In this document: positions 2,752-33,060 of the stretch, in pieces | Layout: each line of letters opens with the position of its first letter | Position numbering within the stretch: position 1 is the stretch's first letter | Assembly: GCA_004292855.1 (NCBI GenBank) | Contig: RDXN01000086.1 | Coordinates: 1 to 37,062, forward strand | Source: Cytophagales bacterium | Lineage (GTDB): Bacteria > Bacteroidota > Bacteroidia > Cytophagales > Spirosomataceae | Direction of reading: 5' to 3' | DNA length: 37,062 nucleotides | Program-made: the position numbers and the translations under genes | The notes under the pieces: model-generated | Told to the model about the DNA's origin: nothing | Database searches by the model: none | Seen by the model: the letters and a program-made list of their open reading frames with translations, nothing else

Positions 2752-3594
2752 ATGTCTTGGTTTATACGCAAGGATAAAGGTATTCAGACCCCAACCGAAA
2801 TGAAGCGGGAAGCTCCCGATGGGTTGTGGTATCAGTGCCCGAACTGCAAAAAAGCGATGTACACCCGCGAGCACGTACAGAACGCGTACACCTGTGTACA
2901 TTGTAATTACCACGAGAAAGTTGGCTCCGACGCCTATTTCTCGATCCTCTTCGACGATAATCAGTTCACGGAGTTAGACGCGATGATGATCTCCGCCGAC
3001 CCCCTGAATTTCAAAGATACCAAAGCCTACCCCGACCGGGTGCGGGCCACGATCAGCAAAACGGGTATGCGCGATGCCGTTCGGACGGGATACGGCAAAA
3101 TGAACGAAGCCGATATCACTATCGCCTGCATGGATTTTGGGTTTATTGGCGGCTCAATGGGGTCGGTGGTGGGTGAGAAGATTGCGCGGGCCATCGACCA
3201 TTCACTGAAAACCAAAACGCCGTTTTTGATGATCTCTCGTTCGGGGGGGGCGCGGATGATGGAGGCCGGTTTCTCGCTCATGCAAATGGCCAAAACCTCA
3301 GCCAAACTCGCCCTGCTCGCCGAAGCCAAAATTCCGTACATCTCGCTCCTGACCGATCCCACAACCGGGGGCGTTACGGCCTCGTTTGCCATGTTGGGCG
3401 ATTTTAACATTGCCGAACCCGGCGCGTTGATCGGCTTTGCCGGACCGCGTGTGATCCGCGAGACTATCGGCAAAGACTTGCCTAAAGGGTTTCAGAGTGC
3501 CGAGTTTGTGCTCGAACACGGTTTTCTGGATTTCATCGTTGACCGTAAAGACCTGAAAGAGAAATTAGGTGGTCTGTTGCAAATGCTGAAATAA
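2752..3594 (+). CDS. accD: Acetyl-CoA carboxylase carboxyltransferase subunit beta
   Basis: AccD is the beta subunit of the carboxyltransferase that moves CO2 from carboxybiotin to acetyl-CoA to make malonyl-CoA, the first committed step of fatty acid synthesis; it acts in the cytoplasm with AccA. The start chosen at 2752 gives a 280-residue protein beginning [10 protein letters not shown], as in the family, rather than an upstream start overlapping the previous gene. A four-Cys zinc ribbon is visible at C29, C32, C48 and C51. The crotonase-like core follows, with [24 protein letters not shown] and [15 protein letters not shown], all standard AccD blocks. The stop codon overlaps the start of the downstream radical SAM gene (TAATG). 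Confidence 0.97.
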
Positions 3595-4571
3595 TGCGTC
3601 TGGTACGTCACCCTGTTCTCTGCAATTACTACGTGACGTATCGCTGCAATGCGACCTGCGGGTTTTGCGACATCTGGGAGCGACCCTCGCCTTATGTGAC
3701 CCCCGAAAATGTGCGTGAAAACCTGCGCGACCTGCGCCGGTTGGGCGTTCGGGTGGTCGATTTCACTGGGGGCGAACCCTTACTCCACCGCCAACTTGCC
3801 GAATTACTGACCGAAGCCAAGCAACAGGGGTTCATCACAACCATTACGACCAATGGACTCCTCTATCCTAAACAAGCCGAACGGTTGCGGGGCCTGGTCG
3901 ACATGCTCCACTTTTCGCTCGATTCGCCGGTAGCCGAGGAACACGACCGCTCGCGGGGGGTGAAGTGCTTCGATAAGGTGATGGAGTCGATAGCGATTGC
4001 CAAATCGCTGGGTGAACGCCCCGATATTCTGTTTACGGTATTTGAGCACAACGTCCATCAGATTCGGGCGGTACATGAGGAAATCTGCCAACCTAACGAT
4101 CTGGTACTGATTCTAAATCCCGTGTTCGACTACAAAGATGTCGAAACGGGTGGACAGTTTTCCGAGGCTTCGCTGGTCGAGATGACCCGCTGGGGTCGCC
4201 AGAAAAATGTGTACCTGAACGACGGCTTCGTGGAGCTTCGGCGCGACGGGGGCAACCACATCGACAAGCCCGTTTGCCGGGCCGCAAGCACCACGCTCGT
4301 GATCTCCCCCGAAAATAAACTCGTGCTTCCCTGCTATCATCTTGGGTTGAAAGAACTGCCCATCGACGGAAATCTATACGACCTGTACCGCTCTGGCGAG
4401 GTGCAAAAACTGGTCGCTCTGGAAGGGCGTTTACCCGAATGTGAGGGTTGCGCCATTAATTGTTACATGCAACCGTCTTTTGCCGTTGAGCTGTCGAAAT
4501 ACTGGTGGAAGGCTCTGCCAAGCACGCTCAAGTATAATCGAATTAAAGGAACCTGGAAACAACTTTTGTAA
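3594..4571 (+). CDS. Radical SAM protein with SPASM-like C-terminal cysteine cluster
   Basis: A 325-residue radical SAM enzyme. The CxxxCxxC motif that binds the SAM-coordinating [4Fe-4S] cluster is C18-C22-C25, and the SAM-binding GGEP is at residues 59-62. The C-terminal region has Cys 228, 247, 283, 286 and 290 in a pattern resembling a SPASM/Twitch auxiliary cluster domain (C-x18-C, then CxxCxxxC), so a second cluster is likely. SPASM proteins often modify peptides, but no precursor peptide gene is visible nearby and the substrate is unknown. Its ATG overlaps the accD stop, implying translational coupling and shared expression with fatty-acid synthesis; whether the functions are linked is not known. 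Confidence 0.88.
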   Translation: MRLVRHPVLCNYYVTYRCNATCGFCDIWERPSPYVTPENVRENLRDLRRLGVRVVDFTGGEPLLHRQLAELLTEAKQQGFITTITTNGLLYPKQAERLRGLVDMLHFSLDSPVAEEHDRSRGVKCFDKVMESIAIAKSLGERPDILFTVFEHNVHQIRAVHEEICQPNDLVLILNPVFDYKDVETGGQFSEASLVEMTRWGRQKNVYLNDGFVELRRDGGNHIDKPVCRAASTTLVISPENKLVLPCYHLGLKELPIDGNLYDLYRSGEVQKLVALEGRLPECEGCAINCYMQPSFAVELSKYWWKALPSTLKYNRIKGTWKQLL

Positions 4572-4703
4572 TGCCGGATAGTATCCGGTATGGCCGAAAG
4601 GCCAACAAAGCTTTACTACACACAATCTGGCACTATCTTTAAATGACCTGTTATTTTATTCCAAACTCATTGGCCTTTCGGCCATGCCGGTTGCTAACCG
4701 GCA
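4572..4703 (+). repeat. REPIN-like inverted pair of double-hairpin elements (family A)
   Basis: The left element (4572-4604) is palindrome A, TGCCGGATAGTATCCGGTA, directly followed by palindrome B, TGGCCGAAAGGCCA. The right element (4671-4703) is the same unit inverted: TGGCCTTTCGGCCA, then TGCCGGTTGCTAACCGGCA. Each palindrome can fold on its own, and the two halves can also pair with each other across a 66-base spacer. A second pair of the same family lies at 28049-28198. The right half lies inside the SGNH hydrolase reading frame. Confidence 0.85.
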
Positions 4704-5329
4704 TAACGATCTACCTGATCTCGTTAACGACTTTCGCCCAAACCCGCCGGTTTGAGTCGGAGATTCAAAAATTTGAGCAAACCGATGCCAAAACGCCCCC
4801 CCCGGCAAATCCGGTTTTGTTTACGGGGAGTTCGTCCATCCGGCTTTGGGACAATTTGCAAACGTATTTTCCGGGCAAGACGGTGTTGCAGCGCGGCTTC
4901 GGGGGCTCCAATCTAACCGACGTGCGGTATTATGTAGACCGGGTTATTATCCGTTACCAACCCAAACAGGTGGTCCTGTACGCGGGCGAGAACGACATTG
5001 CCGCCGGTGCCTCTGCCGATTCGACCTACGACCGCTTCGTCGATTTGTTCCGCTACGTGCGCAAACGCCTGCCCAAAGCACGTTTCACGTTTATTTCGAT
5101 CAAACCCAGCCCGTCGCGCCGGAAGTTTCGGCCCGTTGTAGACGAGACAAACGCGCGGATTCGACGTTTTCTGGCCCGCCGACGCAACACCGATTATGTG
5201 GACATTGTGCCCGTAATGCTCGGTCAAAACGGCCAACCCATCCCCGAACTTTTCCGGGCTGACAGTCTGCACATGACTCCGAAAGGGTATGTATTGTGGG
5301 GGGCGGCTATGCAGGGAGTTGTTAAATGA
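4643..5329 (+). CDS. SGNH/GDSL-type hydrolase, exported
   Basis: A 228-residue SGNH-fold esterase or lipase-like hydrolase related to the platelet-activating-factor acetylhydrolase type. Blocks visible are FTGSSSIRLW (nucleophile Ser probably residue 64, with Ser in place of the usual Asp before it), GFGGSN at 85-90, GEND at 115-118, and DSLH with D207 and H210 as the catalytic acid and base. A hydrophobic segment ending TTFAQ at residues 21-33 looks like a signal peptide, so the protein is probably periplasmic. The n-region of that signal (residues 10-20) is encoded by the right half of a palindromic repeat. A promoter-like TATCTTTA at 4634-4641 abuts the ATG, so a leaderless message or a TTG start at 4670 is possible. 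Substrate unknown. Confidence 0.85.
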   Translation: MTCYFIPNSLAFRPCRLLTGITIYLISLTTFAQTRRFESEIQKFEQTDAKTPPPANPVLFTGSSSIRLWDNLQTYFPGKTVLQRGFGGSNLTDVRYYVDRVIIRYQPKQVVLYAGENDIAAGASADSTYDRFVDLFRYVRKRLPKARFTFISIKPSPSRRKFRPVVDETNARIRRFLARRRNTDYVDIVPVMLGQNGQPIPELFRADSLHMTPKGYVLWGAAMQGVVK

Positions 5330-17870: not shown

Positions 17871-17876
17871 GTATTG

Positions 17877-17939
17877 TGTACGGCGGATTTGCAATCCGCC
17901 TGTAAGTTAGTTGAAAGCGGATTGCAAATCCGCCGTACA
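17877..17939 (+). repeat. REPIN-like perfect 23-bp inverted repeat (family C)
   Basis: The arms at 17877-17899 and 17917-17939 are exact reverse complements with a 17-base loop. Each arm itself contains a small hairpin, GCGGATTTGCAATCCGC (7-bp stem, 3-base loop), preceded by TGTACG. It fills the gap between the polyprenyl synthase stop and the rhomboid start. Confidence 0.9.
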
Positions 17940-17944
17940 GAAAA

Positions 17945-19802: not shown

Positions 19803-20113
19803 GTGTGTTACGGTACGGTTTTGGGTTAATGGGTGCAAGGTACGAAAAAAGGATGTAGGAGTGAGGAGTGAGGAGTGAGGAGTGAGGGGCCAATTATCCG
19901 CGTTACAGCCCCATCGGGGCGGCATGTTAATAGAAAAAAGTGCCGGTATTTAGTAGTAGCCCCATCGGGGCGATATGTTATTTGGCCCTCTTCACATACC
20001 GCCCCGATGGGGCTATTGGTCGCGTAAAATCCTTGATTTCTATTAACATGCCACCCCGATGGGGTTTTAGTTGAAAAGAATTCAAAAATTTGTGGGTGTA
20101 AGAGTAAAAATTT
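19803..20113 (+). other. Gene-free gap (311 bases) filled by repeats
   Basis: This gap between recQ (3' end) and the barrel gene (5' end) holds four perfect copies of the heptamer AGGAGTG at 19857-19884 and a nested cluster of four palindromic REP units at 19907-20064. I see no further gene in it. Confidence 0.8.
19907..20064 (+). repeat. Nested cluster of four CCCCATCGGGG REP units (two inverted pairs)
   Basis: Units 1 (19907-19936) and 2 (19958-19980) run forward; units 3 (19994-20014) and 4 (20037-20064) run inverted. All share the palindromic core CCCCATCGGGG followed by a tail like GGCATGTTAATAG. Units 1 and 4 match over 28 bases with one difference that would still pair G-U; units 2 and 3 form the inner pair. 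The cluster can therefore fold into a long double stem. Confidence 0.9.
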
Positions 20114-24987: not shown

Positions 24988-24993
24988 TGGATT

Positions 24994-25084
24994 GGAACAC
25001 GGATTGAACAGATTTAACGGGTATAAACAGATTTTTTAGGAAGCAATCCGTTTCAATCTGTTAGATCAGTTCAATCCGTGTTCC
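24994..25084 (+). repeat. Inverted repeat with GGAACACGGATTGAAC ends
   Basis: GGAACACGGATTGAAC at 24994-25009 is exactly complementary to 25069-25084; the interior has further partial repeats (ACAGATT, twice forward and once inverted as AATCTGT). It fills the gap before the carboxypeptidase gene and may also act as a terminator for the T9SS gene. Confidence 0.82.
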
Positions 25085-25127
25085 CATCTTTGCGTTTCTG
25101 CTTCAGCAGACAACGCTTATTAACAAG

Positions 25128-27035: not shown

Positions 27036-28043
27036 CCCTTTTTCGTGATTGTAAAGCCGGTCGAACCAGGCTGCTCCCTCACTCAGGGGCACCTCGGCAC
27101 TCAGGATGGCCCCGACGTCGATTTTACCGGACGAGATCAGGGCAAGCGACGCTTCGTATTCGCCGTTGATGGCGCAGGAGCCTTGTAATCGCAGTTGCTC
27201 CGTTACAATTTTCTGCATCGGAATCTCAACTGTGGGCGTGAGGTTGCCCACGAGCGTGATGGTCGCGCCCTTGCGAACGCACGAGATGGCTGTATTGATC
27301 GTCGCATTGGCCCCAACTACTTCAAAAGCTACGTCGGCTCCGCGCCCGTGGGTGAGTTCGCGGACTTGCGCGGGTACGTTGGCGTCGGTGCGGGCGTTGA
27401 GCGTGTGGGTGGCACCGAGTTTTCGGGCAAGGGCCAGCCGGTCGTCGTCAAGATCAATAGCGATTATGGGGCTGCACCCGGCCAATTTCAGGGCCTGCAC
27501 CACAAACAGGCCGATCATACCCGCACCCACAACCACGGCAGAGTCGTTAAGTTGGATAGGCGTGAGGCTAACGGCATGCAGAGCCACGGCCACCGGCTCA
27601 ACCATGGCGGCCTGCGTAAAGGTCACGTTGTCGGGAACGTGGTACAGAATATGCTGCGGGACCGTAACAAACTCAGCGAAAGCCCCGTGCCGCCGAAAAT
27701 TTGGTGTTGAAACACCCACCACCTCGCGGCCATCGCTCAGGTTGTACATACCCCGACGACTATACCAATCATCAAGCGCGTACACGGTTGAATCGAAGGT
27801 GACGCGGTCGCCGGTGGCCCAGGCGTGAACATCGCTGCCTACTTCGGCAATGATCCCCGATGCTTCGTGGCCCATAATAATTGGCGGAACGCGTCGGCCA
27901 CTGCTGCCGTCCATCCCGTGAACATCGGAGCCGCAAATGCCTACGGCCTGCACCCGAATCAAGACCTCGTTAGGGCCGGGTTGCGGCACGGGCATCTCCT
28001 GAAAATCGAGTTGTTTGTATTGGTTAAGGACGAGAGCTTTCAT
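27009..28043 (-). CDS. Zinc-type alcohol/polyol dehydrogenase (MDR family) lacking the structural zinc site
   Basis: A 344-residue medium-chain dehydrogenase similar to galactitol-1-phosphate, sorbitol or threonine dehydrogenases, which oxidise a secondary alcohol with NAD(P)+. Catalytic zinc residues are kept: Cys37 in GICGSD, His59-Glu60 in MGHEASG, and Glu149. The Rossmann motif is VVGAGMIG (171-178). The lobe that usually holds the structural zinc (Cys pattern CxxCxxCx7C) has Ala89, Asp92, Ser95 and Ser103 instead, so that zinc cannot bind in the normal way. The reading frame is otherwise intact. The gene is monocistronic with a REP pair upstream of its start; the substrate is unknown. 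Confidence 0.9.
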   Translation of the reverse strand: MKALVLNQYKQLDFQEMPVPQPGPNEVLIRVQAVGICGSDVHGMDGSSGRRVPPIIMGHEASGIIAEVGSDVHAWATGDRVTFDSTVYALDDWYSRRGMYNLSDGREVVGVSTPNFRRHGAFAEFVTVPQHILYHVPDNVTFTQAAMVEPVAVALHAVSLTPIQLNDSAVVVGAGMIGLFVVQALKLAGCSPIIAIDLDDDRLALARKLGATHTLNARTDANVPAQVRELTHGRGADVAFEVVGANATINTAISCVRKGATITLVGNLTPTVEIPMQKIVTEQLRLQGSCAINGEYEASLALISSGKIDVGAILSAEVPLSEGAAWFDRLYNHEKGLMKVVLKP

Positions 28044-28048
28044 GATTT

Positions 28049-28198
28049 TGTAGTGCCGGTTAGTAACCGGCTCAGTCGCGGAGCGACTAACAACGTTTAC
28101 GAATGAGATACCTGTACTGTGAACGGGTTGGATGCTTACTTTTAAAGGAATGTTTTTTAGCCACTTCGTGGCTGTGCCGGTTAGTAACCGGCACTACA
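28049..28198 (+). repeat. REPIN-like inverted pair of double-hairpin elements (family A, second copy)
   Basis: The left unit is TGCCGGTTAGTAACCGGCT (28054-28072), then AGTCGCGGAGCGACT (28074-28088). The right unit, inverted, is AGCCACTTCGTGGCT (28159-28173), then the A palindrome (28174-28194). Outer ends TGTAGTGCCGG and CCGGCACTACA are exact complements. The B stem differs from that at 4591-4604 and even between the two halves, yet remains paired. The right edge provides the stop codon of the McrB-like gene. Confidence 0.85.
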
Positions 28199-29810
28199 TG
28201 GGCCGCTCATAAATTCTTGTGTACGCTTCTTTCGGAATTTGCTCAAACTCACCTGCCAACAGGTGCGGGTTGATCTCGTAGGTCACAACCTCATCCATGT
28301 CGTTGGGGTTCTCGCCGAACAGTTCACGGGATAAAGCCGGGGTGTATTGTTTCTTAACCCAAACAAGCCGTTGGTCGGGGACTTTTCCCCACGCCTTGTG
28401 GTCGCCCAAAACAAGCTGAATCTTGTGCCAATCGCCGTAAAAGTACTCCTGAAGCAGTGGAATGACAGAATCGCGGAACACGGCCCCCAACTCGGATAGT
28501 GATTGCACCGGCATCAAATACGCATGGCCGATCTGATGATCGCGGTCGTAGAGATACTCGATGCGCTCGTTCATAGTCCGTAGCAACAGGGCCAAATCAA
28601 CCCCTTCGATGGTGCCGAGTAAGGCCGGGTTGGGCAGTACTTCGCGAAAACTAAACCGCCGACGAAGGGCCAAATCGAGCAGGGCAATGGATCGGTCGGC
28701 GGTGTTCATAGAACCGACAATGTAGAGGTTGGCCGGTACGCCAAACCGTTCCTGCGAGTAGGGCAGTGTGAGCCATAGTTCGTGGTCGCGACCCAGCCGT
28801 TTGCTGTCTTCGATGAGCGTGATGAGTTCGCCTAATACACTCGCGATATTAGCCCGATTAATCTCGTCGATAAGCAGAAAATGGGGTGGAGCCAACCTGA
28901 ATCGCCGTTGTCGATTGGCGGGCGTATCGTTCAGGCAGTCGGCCATCGTGGCGTAACCAGCCTGTTGCAGGGCTGTGAGACAGGCCCGGTGAAAAATGCC
29001 TTTGCGAACCCGATAGCTGATTTGCCCGCCCAGCGTTTCGGGCCGAATACCTTCCACAAACTCCTCGTAGCTATACGACGCGTGGAACGTCACAAAATCG
29101 GCGGGGTGCGTTCGCTCGTAGCTGCCGTTGGTGCTCGCAGCGAGCCAGTTATGTTGCAGCGCAAAGGTTTTGCCTGTTCCCGGAGGGCCGTACAAAATTA
29201 AATTGCGCGGTTGATTTAGCGGTTCGGGTGGGGTTGTCTCGTATGTCGCTTCCGGTTCGGCCACGCTGTCGAACGACTCACCCAGTGCGGGGTTAGTGGC
29301 CAGGCGAAGTAGCTCCGACAGGTAGGCTTCGTCTTCAGCAGCCCGGAATACGTCGGGATTGTGCCGGGCTGTGTGCGGACCGCGTCGGCTGCTTTCGACC
29401 AGTTCGAGCAGACAATCCTCCCAACAGGTTCGCAATACCGGATGGTTGAGCAAGTGCGCATGGGCCTGTCCCACAACAACCGACACATAGTCTGATTTCT
29501 CGGACAGTGGCACCGTGTCGATCATGTCCAAATCGGCCAAACGGTCGAGACAGGAGCGTTTTACGGTCAGCCAGTATTCCTGCTCGCCATAGCGCGGGCG
29601 ATGGAGCCGAAGGGCCACAAAAAAGTTGATATTGGCCGAAATCGCCACTTTGTCGCGCCGAACCGTAAACGCCAGCCGGGCATCACCGTTGGGGAGGTTC
29701 ACGAGGTCGATCAGTTCTTTCAGCAAACCAAAAAACCGCCGAACGGCCTCCGGGTGCCCAATCGTTCGGATTCGGTCGGTTAAAAGCTGCTGATGGTCTT
29801 CGGCAATCAT
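28194..29810 (-). CDS. McrB-like AAA+ GTPase/ATPase, without an adjacent McrC
   Basis: A 538-residue protein. Residues 1-190 are an N-terminal region of unknown fold (a possible DNA- or target-recognition domain). Residues 200-400 are an AAA+ module of the McrB clade: Walker A GPPGTGKT (208-215), [17 protein letters not shown] (241-257), Walker [11 protein letters not shown] (312-321), the McrB signature MNTADRS (368-374) and an arginine finger in RRRF (383-386). McrB normally works with the nuclease McrC to cut modified DNA, but the flanking genes are a dehydrogenase and a lipoprotein, and no McrC-like frame is present. It may act alone, with a distant partner, or in a non-restriction role. 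Its last Met codon and stop fall in the REP element. Confidence 0.87.

Positions 29811-31195: not shown

Positions 31196-33060
<1,865 letters not shown>

Follow-up and report, generated by a model that had tools for sequence, protein, structure and literature searches.

Two inverted repeats lie in the 37,062 nucleotides of a Cytophagales bacterium that we analysed (this whole stretch is the window; it is contig C48 of genome G000, an assembly of 6.25 Mb in 108 contigs). Each of their four halves joins a nearly constant palindrome, A, to a short stem, B, whose letters differ. What kind of element is this, and why does B stay paired while its sequence changes? The initial annotation had read the three B sequences, all paired, as compensatory change indicating selected RNA or DNA structure, and had proposed that B could act as an identity tag.

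Architecture and kind of the repeats

Both elements, e1 and e2, are inverted pairs. Reading inwards, a half opens with a foot of 4 bases; palindrome A (consensus TGCCGGATAGTATCCGGCA) comes next and is joined by a short linker to stem B, after which come the spacer and the mirror half. The commonest forms of B are GGCC-GNNA-GGCC and AGCC-GNNA-GGCT. The coordinates and stems first given for the four half-elements proved correct on re-reading of the sequence, and the features are as follows.

4568..4707, both strands: REPIN e1, complete head-to-head element
4568-4605 (+) and 4670-4707 (-): halves of e1, both with B as GGCC-GAAA-GGCC
4568..4571, +: e1 left foot GTAA; the radical SAM gene 3594-4571 stops at its TAA (4569-4571)
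4572..4590, +: e1 left palindrome A
4592..4603, +: e1 left stem B, GGCC-GAAA-GGCC
4672..4683, -: e1 right stem B, GGCC-GAAA-GGCC
4685..4703, -: e1 right palindrome A
4704..4707, -: e1 right foot GTTA
28050..28197, both strands: REPIN e2, complete head-to-head element (28049-28198 in the initial annotation)
28050-28090 (+) and 28157-28197 (-): halves of e2
28050..28053, +: e2 left foot GTAG
28054..28072, +: e2 left palindrome A
28074..28088, +: e2 left stem B, AGTCGC-GGA-GCGACT
28159..28173, -: e2 right stem B, AGCCAC-GAA-GTGGCT
28175..28193, -: e2 right palindrome A
28194..28197, -: e2 right foot GTAG; the AAA ATPase gene 28194-29810(-) stops at its TAG (28194-28196)

As single-stranded DNA, e1 and e2 fold far better than their shuffled sequences (z of -7.44 and -7.81, with 0 of 200 shuffles as good in each case), and in the predicted fold the arms of e1 form one long hairpin.

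The elements are dispersed over the genome. A pattern of foot plus A with at most 2 mismatches gave 72+75 matches against 9+11 for a reversed control; the palindromic nature of A lets a single copy count on both strands. We then built a covariance model, R1, from 29 halves, with 12 pairs in its structure; it returned 157 matches at E<=1. Picking by hand the full-length rows among the R1 matches listed, and leaving out eight reverse-strand readings, we counted at least 119 half-elements in at least 63 loci; of these 63, 38 were scored head-to-head, 16 tail-to-tail and 9 other. The spacers are unrelated: 37 of them, compared with one another, had no mutual similarity beyond 10-11 bases at E<=0.1, and the spacer was rejected as a conserved cargo. 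Among 71 aligned halves the foot reads GTAG in 43, GTGG in 1, GTAA in 12, GTTG in 10, GTTA in 4 and GTCG in 1, so that a GT[AG]G foot stands directly 5' of the palindrome in 44 and another foot in 27.

Gene ends are a frequent position of the elements. Among 69 gene ends at head-to-head or single elements, defined as open frames of at least 100 codons running into them rather than as annotated genes, 29 stop exactly in the foot and 9 elsewhere inside the element. GTAG-tagged REPs are known often to provide a stop codon (Di Nocera et al. 2013, PMC3733652; this and the other papers are cited from their accessible parts).

Many dispersed copies, inverted pairs around a short, diverse spacer, and a position at gene 3' ends with the foot as stop codon make it well supported that e1 and e2 belong to a GTAG-tagged REP/REPIN family, though the cognate transposase is missing. 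The initial annotation had described the stems without recognizing this kind, in which foot, inverted pairs and copies place them. No RAYT gene flanked by the same REP was found: the assembly has 8 Y1 transposase genes, and palindrome A is absent from the fetched flanks of all of them (1.5 kb; less on one side of L006). Losses of RAYT genes are known (PMC3733652); we therefore take the cognate RAYT to be missing from the assembly, with the REPIN kind still open to these repeats.

The likeness to published systems is close. GTAG-tagged REPs and their head-to-head dimers (PMC3733652) share the GTAG-type foot, the palindrome, the inverted dimers, the position at gene 3' ends and the TAG stop in the foot. 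Some of those dimers have stem-loops at one or both ends of the spacer, and an extra stem beside a REP is therefore not new in itself; unlike the REPs described in that source, however, nearly all halves here carry a stem with a GNNA or GNA loop after A, and related genomes have similar stems next to other palindromes. REPINs mobilized by RAYT transposases (PMC8049555; PMC3116915) have the same two inverted REPs around a diverse spacer, whereas the present family, compared with those of PMC8049555, lacks a cognate RAYT in the assembly and has B added. Tagged REPs also surround transposase genes, as here, in the RAYT/TnpAREP subclasses of Quentin et al. 2018 (PMC6006769), where REPs are subclass-specific and a Bacteroidetes subclass has atypical structures. 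The 'double foot' forms of that paper resemble two loci that have a double foot and no B, C98:34105 (scored head-to-head) and C9:4095 (scored tail-to-tail). Foot and palindrome have been tested as determinants for three enzymes (PMC8266576); PMC2817692 is a further reference to prior work.

The family has a narrow distribution. With R1 the three congeners, of which one is 71% complete, yielded no copy, and 35 further relatives yielded one match (E 0.006) whose letters read like part of a tRNA gene. Across 222 genomes of the bacterial family, matches at E<=0.001 were confined to this genome, G227 and G229, the latter two having the same architecture with other palindromes. These searches scored the best 150 and the best 30 candidates per genome, and weak scattered copies may escape them. 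G001, G002 and G003 lack e2 at the orthologous position, but their intergenic DNA there is unrelated and so provides no clean empty site. A spacer descended from ancestral intergenic DNA between two separate insertions was not visible at e2, though the congener intergenic DNA is too diverged for this to weigh against it. The flanks of e1 (4568-4707) lie in different places in the congener G002, about 60 kb apart, and e1 is therefore at a rearrangement breakpoint between species.

We made several further observations on the repeats. In tail-to-tail pairs (L074, L087, L088, L091, L097, L101, L103, L106, L107, L116, L120, L121 and others) about 17 bases separate the feet, and most of these pairs sit in a longer conserved repeat with ends like GGTGCATTTCAATCTTGTGTGTTA and TATAGGTTGCTTTAAGTAGCGACGGTTGAG. 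The head-to-head element C1:195405 holds a copy of this tail-to-tail repeat, with only TTGGCCGTAAGGCCAA in its middle. A long variant of palindrome A, GTAGTGCCGGCGGTCCGTCGCTACGGTAGTATCCGGC, occurs in 15 of the 71 aligned non-tail-to-tail halves (L070, L077, L078, L099, L104 and others). A conserved coding region contains the degenerate element L110 (around 1501, C57:15126); at this place the sequence of G002 is different and about as long.

The window holds other inverted repeats. A palindromic repeat at 19904-20069 (AGCCCCATCGGGGCGGCATGTTAATAG and its inverses) has many matches in the genome, with further ones flanking L005 (C30:67736-68023) on either side. L005 is a Y1 transposase gene, IS200-like and with motif NQEEHH; the flanking matches suggest that its subclass may also have REP-like repeats (subclass names follow a motif reading against the table of PMC6006769, without a tree). 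An inverted repeat at 17874-17942 (GTACGGCGGATTTGCAATCCGCC) looks by eye like the repeats around the RAYT gene L136 of the congener G003, and two more, at 24989-25088 and 32914-33060, have many matches elsewhere in the genome.

Pairing and covariation of stem B

Stem B is paired in nearly all copies. We based the count on 112 halves, having dropped 7 of the 119 (five at double-foot or reverse-strand places and two with a truncated A). B forms 4 or more mismatch-free base pairs in 75/82 non-tail-to-tail and 28/30 tail-to-tail halves. Those 75 are also the ones that attain the score cut-off; when the first 20 bases of each of the 82 segments are shuffled, 5.9% get that far. Because R1 favours a paired B, we chose a second sample with foot and A alone (at most 1 mismatch). 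Its 85 places comprise 71 with a fully paired B, 8 with a weak B, 4 without B (all at the two double-foot, deletion-like loci) and 2 chance matches, which are missing among the R1 matches listed and show no second half or B on reading. Leaving aside the chance matches and the halves without B, 71 of 79 halves thus have a fully paired B. A majority of genomic copies with unpaired or random B, which the initial annotation had named as the outcome that would count against it, is therefore not what we see. The variety of B was more limited than the window had suggested: the pairing of its three stem sequences holds, but most halves differ only in the loop and at one pair, 25-36, which is G-C or A-T. 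The strikingly different stems of e2 are among the 10 of 111 halves that lie outside the common register of 4 bp and 4 nt.

We then asked whether the paired positions change together. The rows of the R1 model alignment had been selected for having A intact and B short; 99.1% of its cells show pairing, and it scores 0.189 for covariation, against 0.085 in shuffles, none of 500 attaining the observed value. We widened the test by starting from the 112 halves, removing one because of its length and setting aside the 10 of 111 out of register; of the 101 that remained, the 71 non-tail-to-tail halves are all distinct. The null consisted of 80 alignments simulated on a tree with the same changes per column, our own approximation of R-scape, with the tree built from the same 38 columns. 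The best two of 630 column pairs were B 25-36 and A 11-17, both with E 0.0125, which is the resolution limit of 80 simulations; the covariation check proposed for genomic copies, in this approximate form, thus singles out one pair of B. Pair 25-36 reads GC in 39 halves, AT in 30, GT in 1 and GG in 1, and pair 11-17 reads AT in 35 and TA in 21, with 15 gaps. A 6-22 ranks third (E 0.89), and B 27-34 (8th), B 28-33 (11th) and B 26-35 (low) have no significant covariation against the tree null in the 71 halves.

The number of events behind this signal is small. By parsimony, column 25 needs 1 change and column 36 needs 3, and columns 11 and 17 need 4 each; the covariation thus goes back to few independent events. 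Recombination between halves would weaken both the tree and the null. The same parsimony counts, on a tree that comes from the 38 columns under test, speak for a view in which the apparent covariation is just a handful of subfamilies (GGCC/AGCC, A-T/T-A) copied often. We find this improbable, since a score as high as that observed was rare under the null with the same changes per column, 18/27 head-to-head elements combine both B types, and rare halves carry quite different, paired stems. Even on this view, pairing was kept in the founders themselves. That pairing of A and B is maintained is well supported, with a small count of independent compensations.

It may be due to selection, to template-switch repair, or to both. 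DNA template switching can produce paired changes in one step (PMC8794818), and if during replication it repaired one palindrome arm from the other, pairs would change together without selection on structure. Intermediates are indeed nearly absent (1 G-T and 1 G-G in 71 at pair 25-36, 0 in 56 at pair 11-17). The halves of one element also share their loops above expectation: the B loop is identical in 12/27 pairs (6.5 expected, p 0.005) and the A loop in 6/15 (1.9 expected, p 0.005), while A column 11 is identical in 12/15 (7.4 expected, p 0.03). B type is equal in 9/27 (13.4 expected, p 0.08 for fewer); the corresponding excess of unlike B types per element is not significant. Likeness of an element's halves could stem from common descent, from arm-to-arm repair, or from arms pairing in one long hairpin, as e1 folds. 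We consider mutation bias an unlikely account of the whole pattern, however, because it leaves unexplained the constant outer loop G and A and the C-G closing pair beside a changing inner loop, as well as the recurrence of a B-like stem beside other palindromes. The step from compensatory change to selected structure therefore stands in part: pairing is kept while letters change at 25-36 and 11-17, but the events are few and template switching is a possible source.

B-like stems beside other palindromes

A stem resembling B recurs beside RAYT genes whose repeats have other palindromes. The RAYT gene L135 of the congener G002 has inverted pairs on both sides, with a different palindrome (CAGTGAAGCGGTGCTTCGCTG and variants) and stems like GGCC-GATA-GGCC (an outer A-C mismatch in 1/4 halves). 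L194, a RAYT gene of G069, which belongs to another genus, has four GTAG-tagged halves in which CCAGAC..GTCTGG is followed by stems like TAGCC-(3 or 4 nt)-GGCTA, with a mismatch in 1/4; its own stop codon is the TAG of a foot. In the present genome, four halves lie at the RAYT gene L006; their palindromes resemble TGGCCGTTTGCAACGGCCA, their stem is AGCC-GNNA-GGCT, and they lack a GTAG foot. The NCBIfam model of REP-associated transposases places L006 (115 bits) and L194 (92.5 bits) above its cut-off of 80, and L135 (76.3 bits) and L008 (75.4 bits) just below it. From one family to the next A changes, but a stem of the B kind (RGCC-GNNA-GGCY) comes back next to three RAYT genes whose palindromes are different. 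The proposal that B is a variable tag telling copies apart draws on the variation of its stem and loop between copies. It runs against this recurrence with different palindromes, in other families and genera, and against the finding that most halves have one of two stems and few loops; we regard it as very improbable.

How widespread the stem is depends on the scan. B pattern RGCCGNNAGGCYAA matches this genome 53+56 times against 6+16 for the reversed control, whereas in three congeners the pattern alone gives no excess over it (27 vs 33, 17 vs 38, 8 vs 19). A scan of 30 RAYT loci detected B only at L194, to which reading added L135; many of the other loci have single tagged hairpins. A double-hairpin scan of 46 transposase loci returned L006, L135 (L181 is the same place) and L194, together with L169 and L205, which look unlike the B module; its chance level is up to 1.0 per shuffle (L194), and it missed L135 halves visible by eye, so its zeros are weak. 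Dispersed copies with a B-like stem and further palindromes are present in G069, G227 and G229. In G069 the third loop position is a pyrimidine in 11/13 tetraloops, unlike RNA GNRA loops, most copies there and in G227 having been fetched with a pattern that fixes the stem and the last loop base, so that only the first three loop bases are unbiased. A B-like stem common to different palindromes is not met in the accessible parts of PMC6006769, and the titles and abstracts we searched, a coverage that leaves out most subscription journals, contain no second hairpin common to different REP families.

A proposed single-strand role for B

B also has a loop signature. GNNA loops are found in 66/71 non-tail-to-tail and 30/30 tail-to-tail halves, and GNRA loops in 60/71 and 30/30, while a GNA loop in palindrome A occurs in 0/56 and 0/26. 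The tree calls for 14 changes at column 30 and 16 at column 31, the inner loop positions, and for only 4 and 1 at the outer positions 29 and 32. Seven head-to-head halves have triloops instead (GAA 4, GGA 1, GCA 1, ATA 1). Hairpins of DNA that close a GNA or GNNA loop with two or more G-C pairs are exceptionally stable, resist nucleases and also protect 3' ends (PMC4686876). B matches these mini-hairpins by sequence, with the same loops on a G-C stem; those described there are designed oligonucleotides. This match leads us to favour a role of B in single-stranded DNA.

The dominance of GNRA loops would also suit a role in RNA, in which hairpins A and B at the 3' end of an mRNA stabilize the message or shape its end, with pairing selected in the transcript. 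The position of the elements at gene 3' ends, where the foot provides stop codons, speaks for it, and PMC3733652 discusses roles of REPs in mRNA. We nevertheless hold this reading to be rather doubtful. Terminator-like sites (a G+C-rich hairpin followed by a T run) number 0 in 4450-4800 and 0 in 27900-28300, and an intrinsic terminator at e1 or e2 was rejected. A known RNA family was likewise rejected, with 0 Rfam matches at gathering score in the window and, at e2, only weak eukaryotic or viral families below that score. Moreover, the third loop base is free in G069, and the family was not found in the three congeners.

We therefore suggest, as the probable explanation, a GTAG-tagged REPIN family with RAYT-type processing, in which B is kept for a single-strand role and the elements persist at gene 3' ends. 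The elements would be non-autonomous mobile DNA, two inverted REP halves around a free spacer. Going by the family to which they belong, an HUH transposase of the RAYT type would read the foot and hairpin A on a single strand, and cut and join that strand. B, with its short stem, C-G closing pair and GNNA or GNA loop, may be retained for the help it gives the single strand in folding, in being recognized or in withstanding exonucleases. Judging by position, insertions would persist mainly at the 3' ends of genes, where the foot is usable as a stop codon.

A broader proposal can be put forward tentatively. The RAYT/REP systems of this bacterial family may share an interchangeable, extra-stable GNNA/GNA mini-hairpin 3' of the REP hairpin, acting at the single-stranded DNA stage as a folding aid, a second docking site or a block to exonucleases, with A providing the specificity of each family. 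We keep this at the level of a possibility because the B pattern has no excess in the congeners and the covariation rests on a small number of events. Since the stem remains similar where the palindrome that gives specificity differs, it offers a clear substrate test for REP transposases. The case also illustrates that strongly paired, covarying stems can be mobile DNA and not an RNA gene, which matters for the finding of RNAs by covariation.
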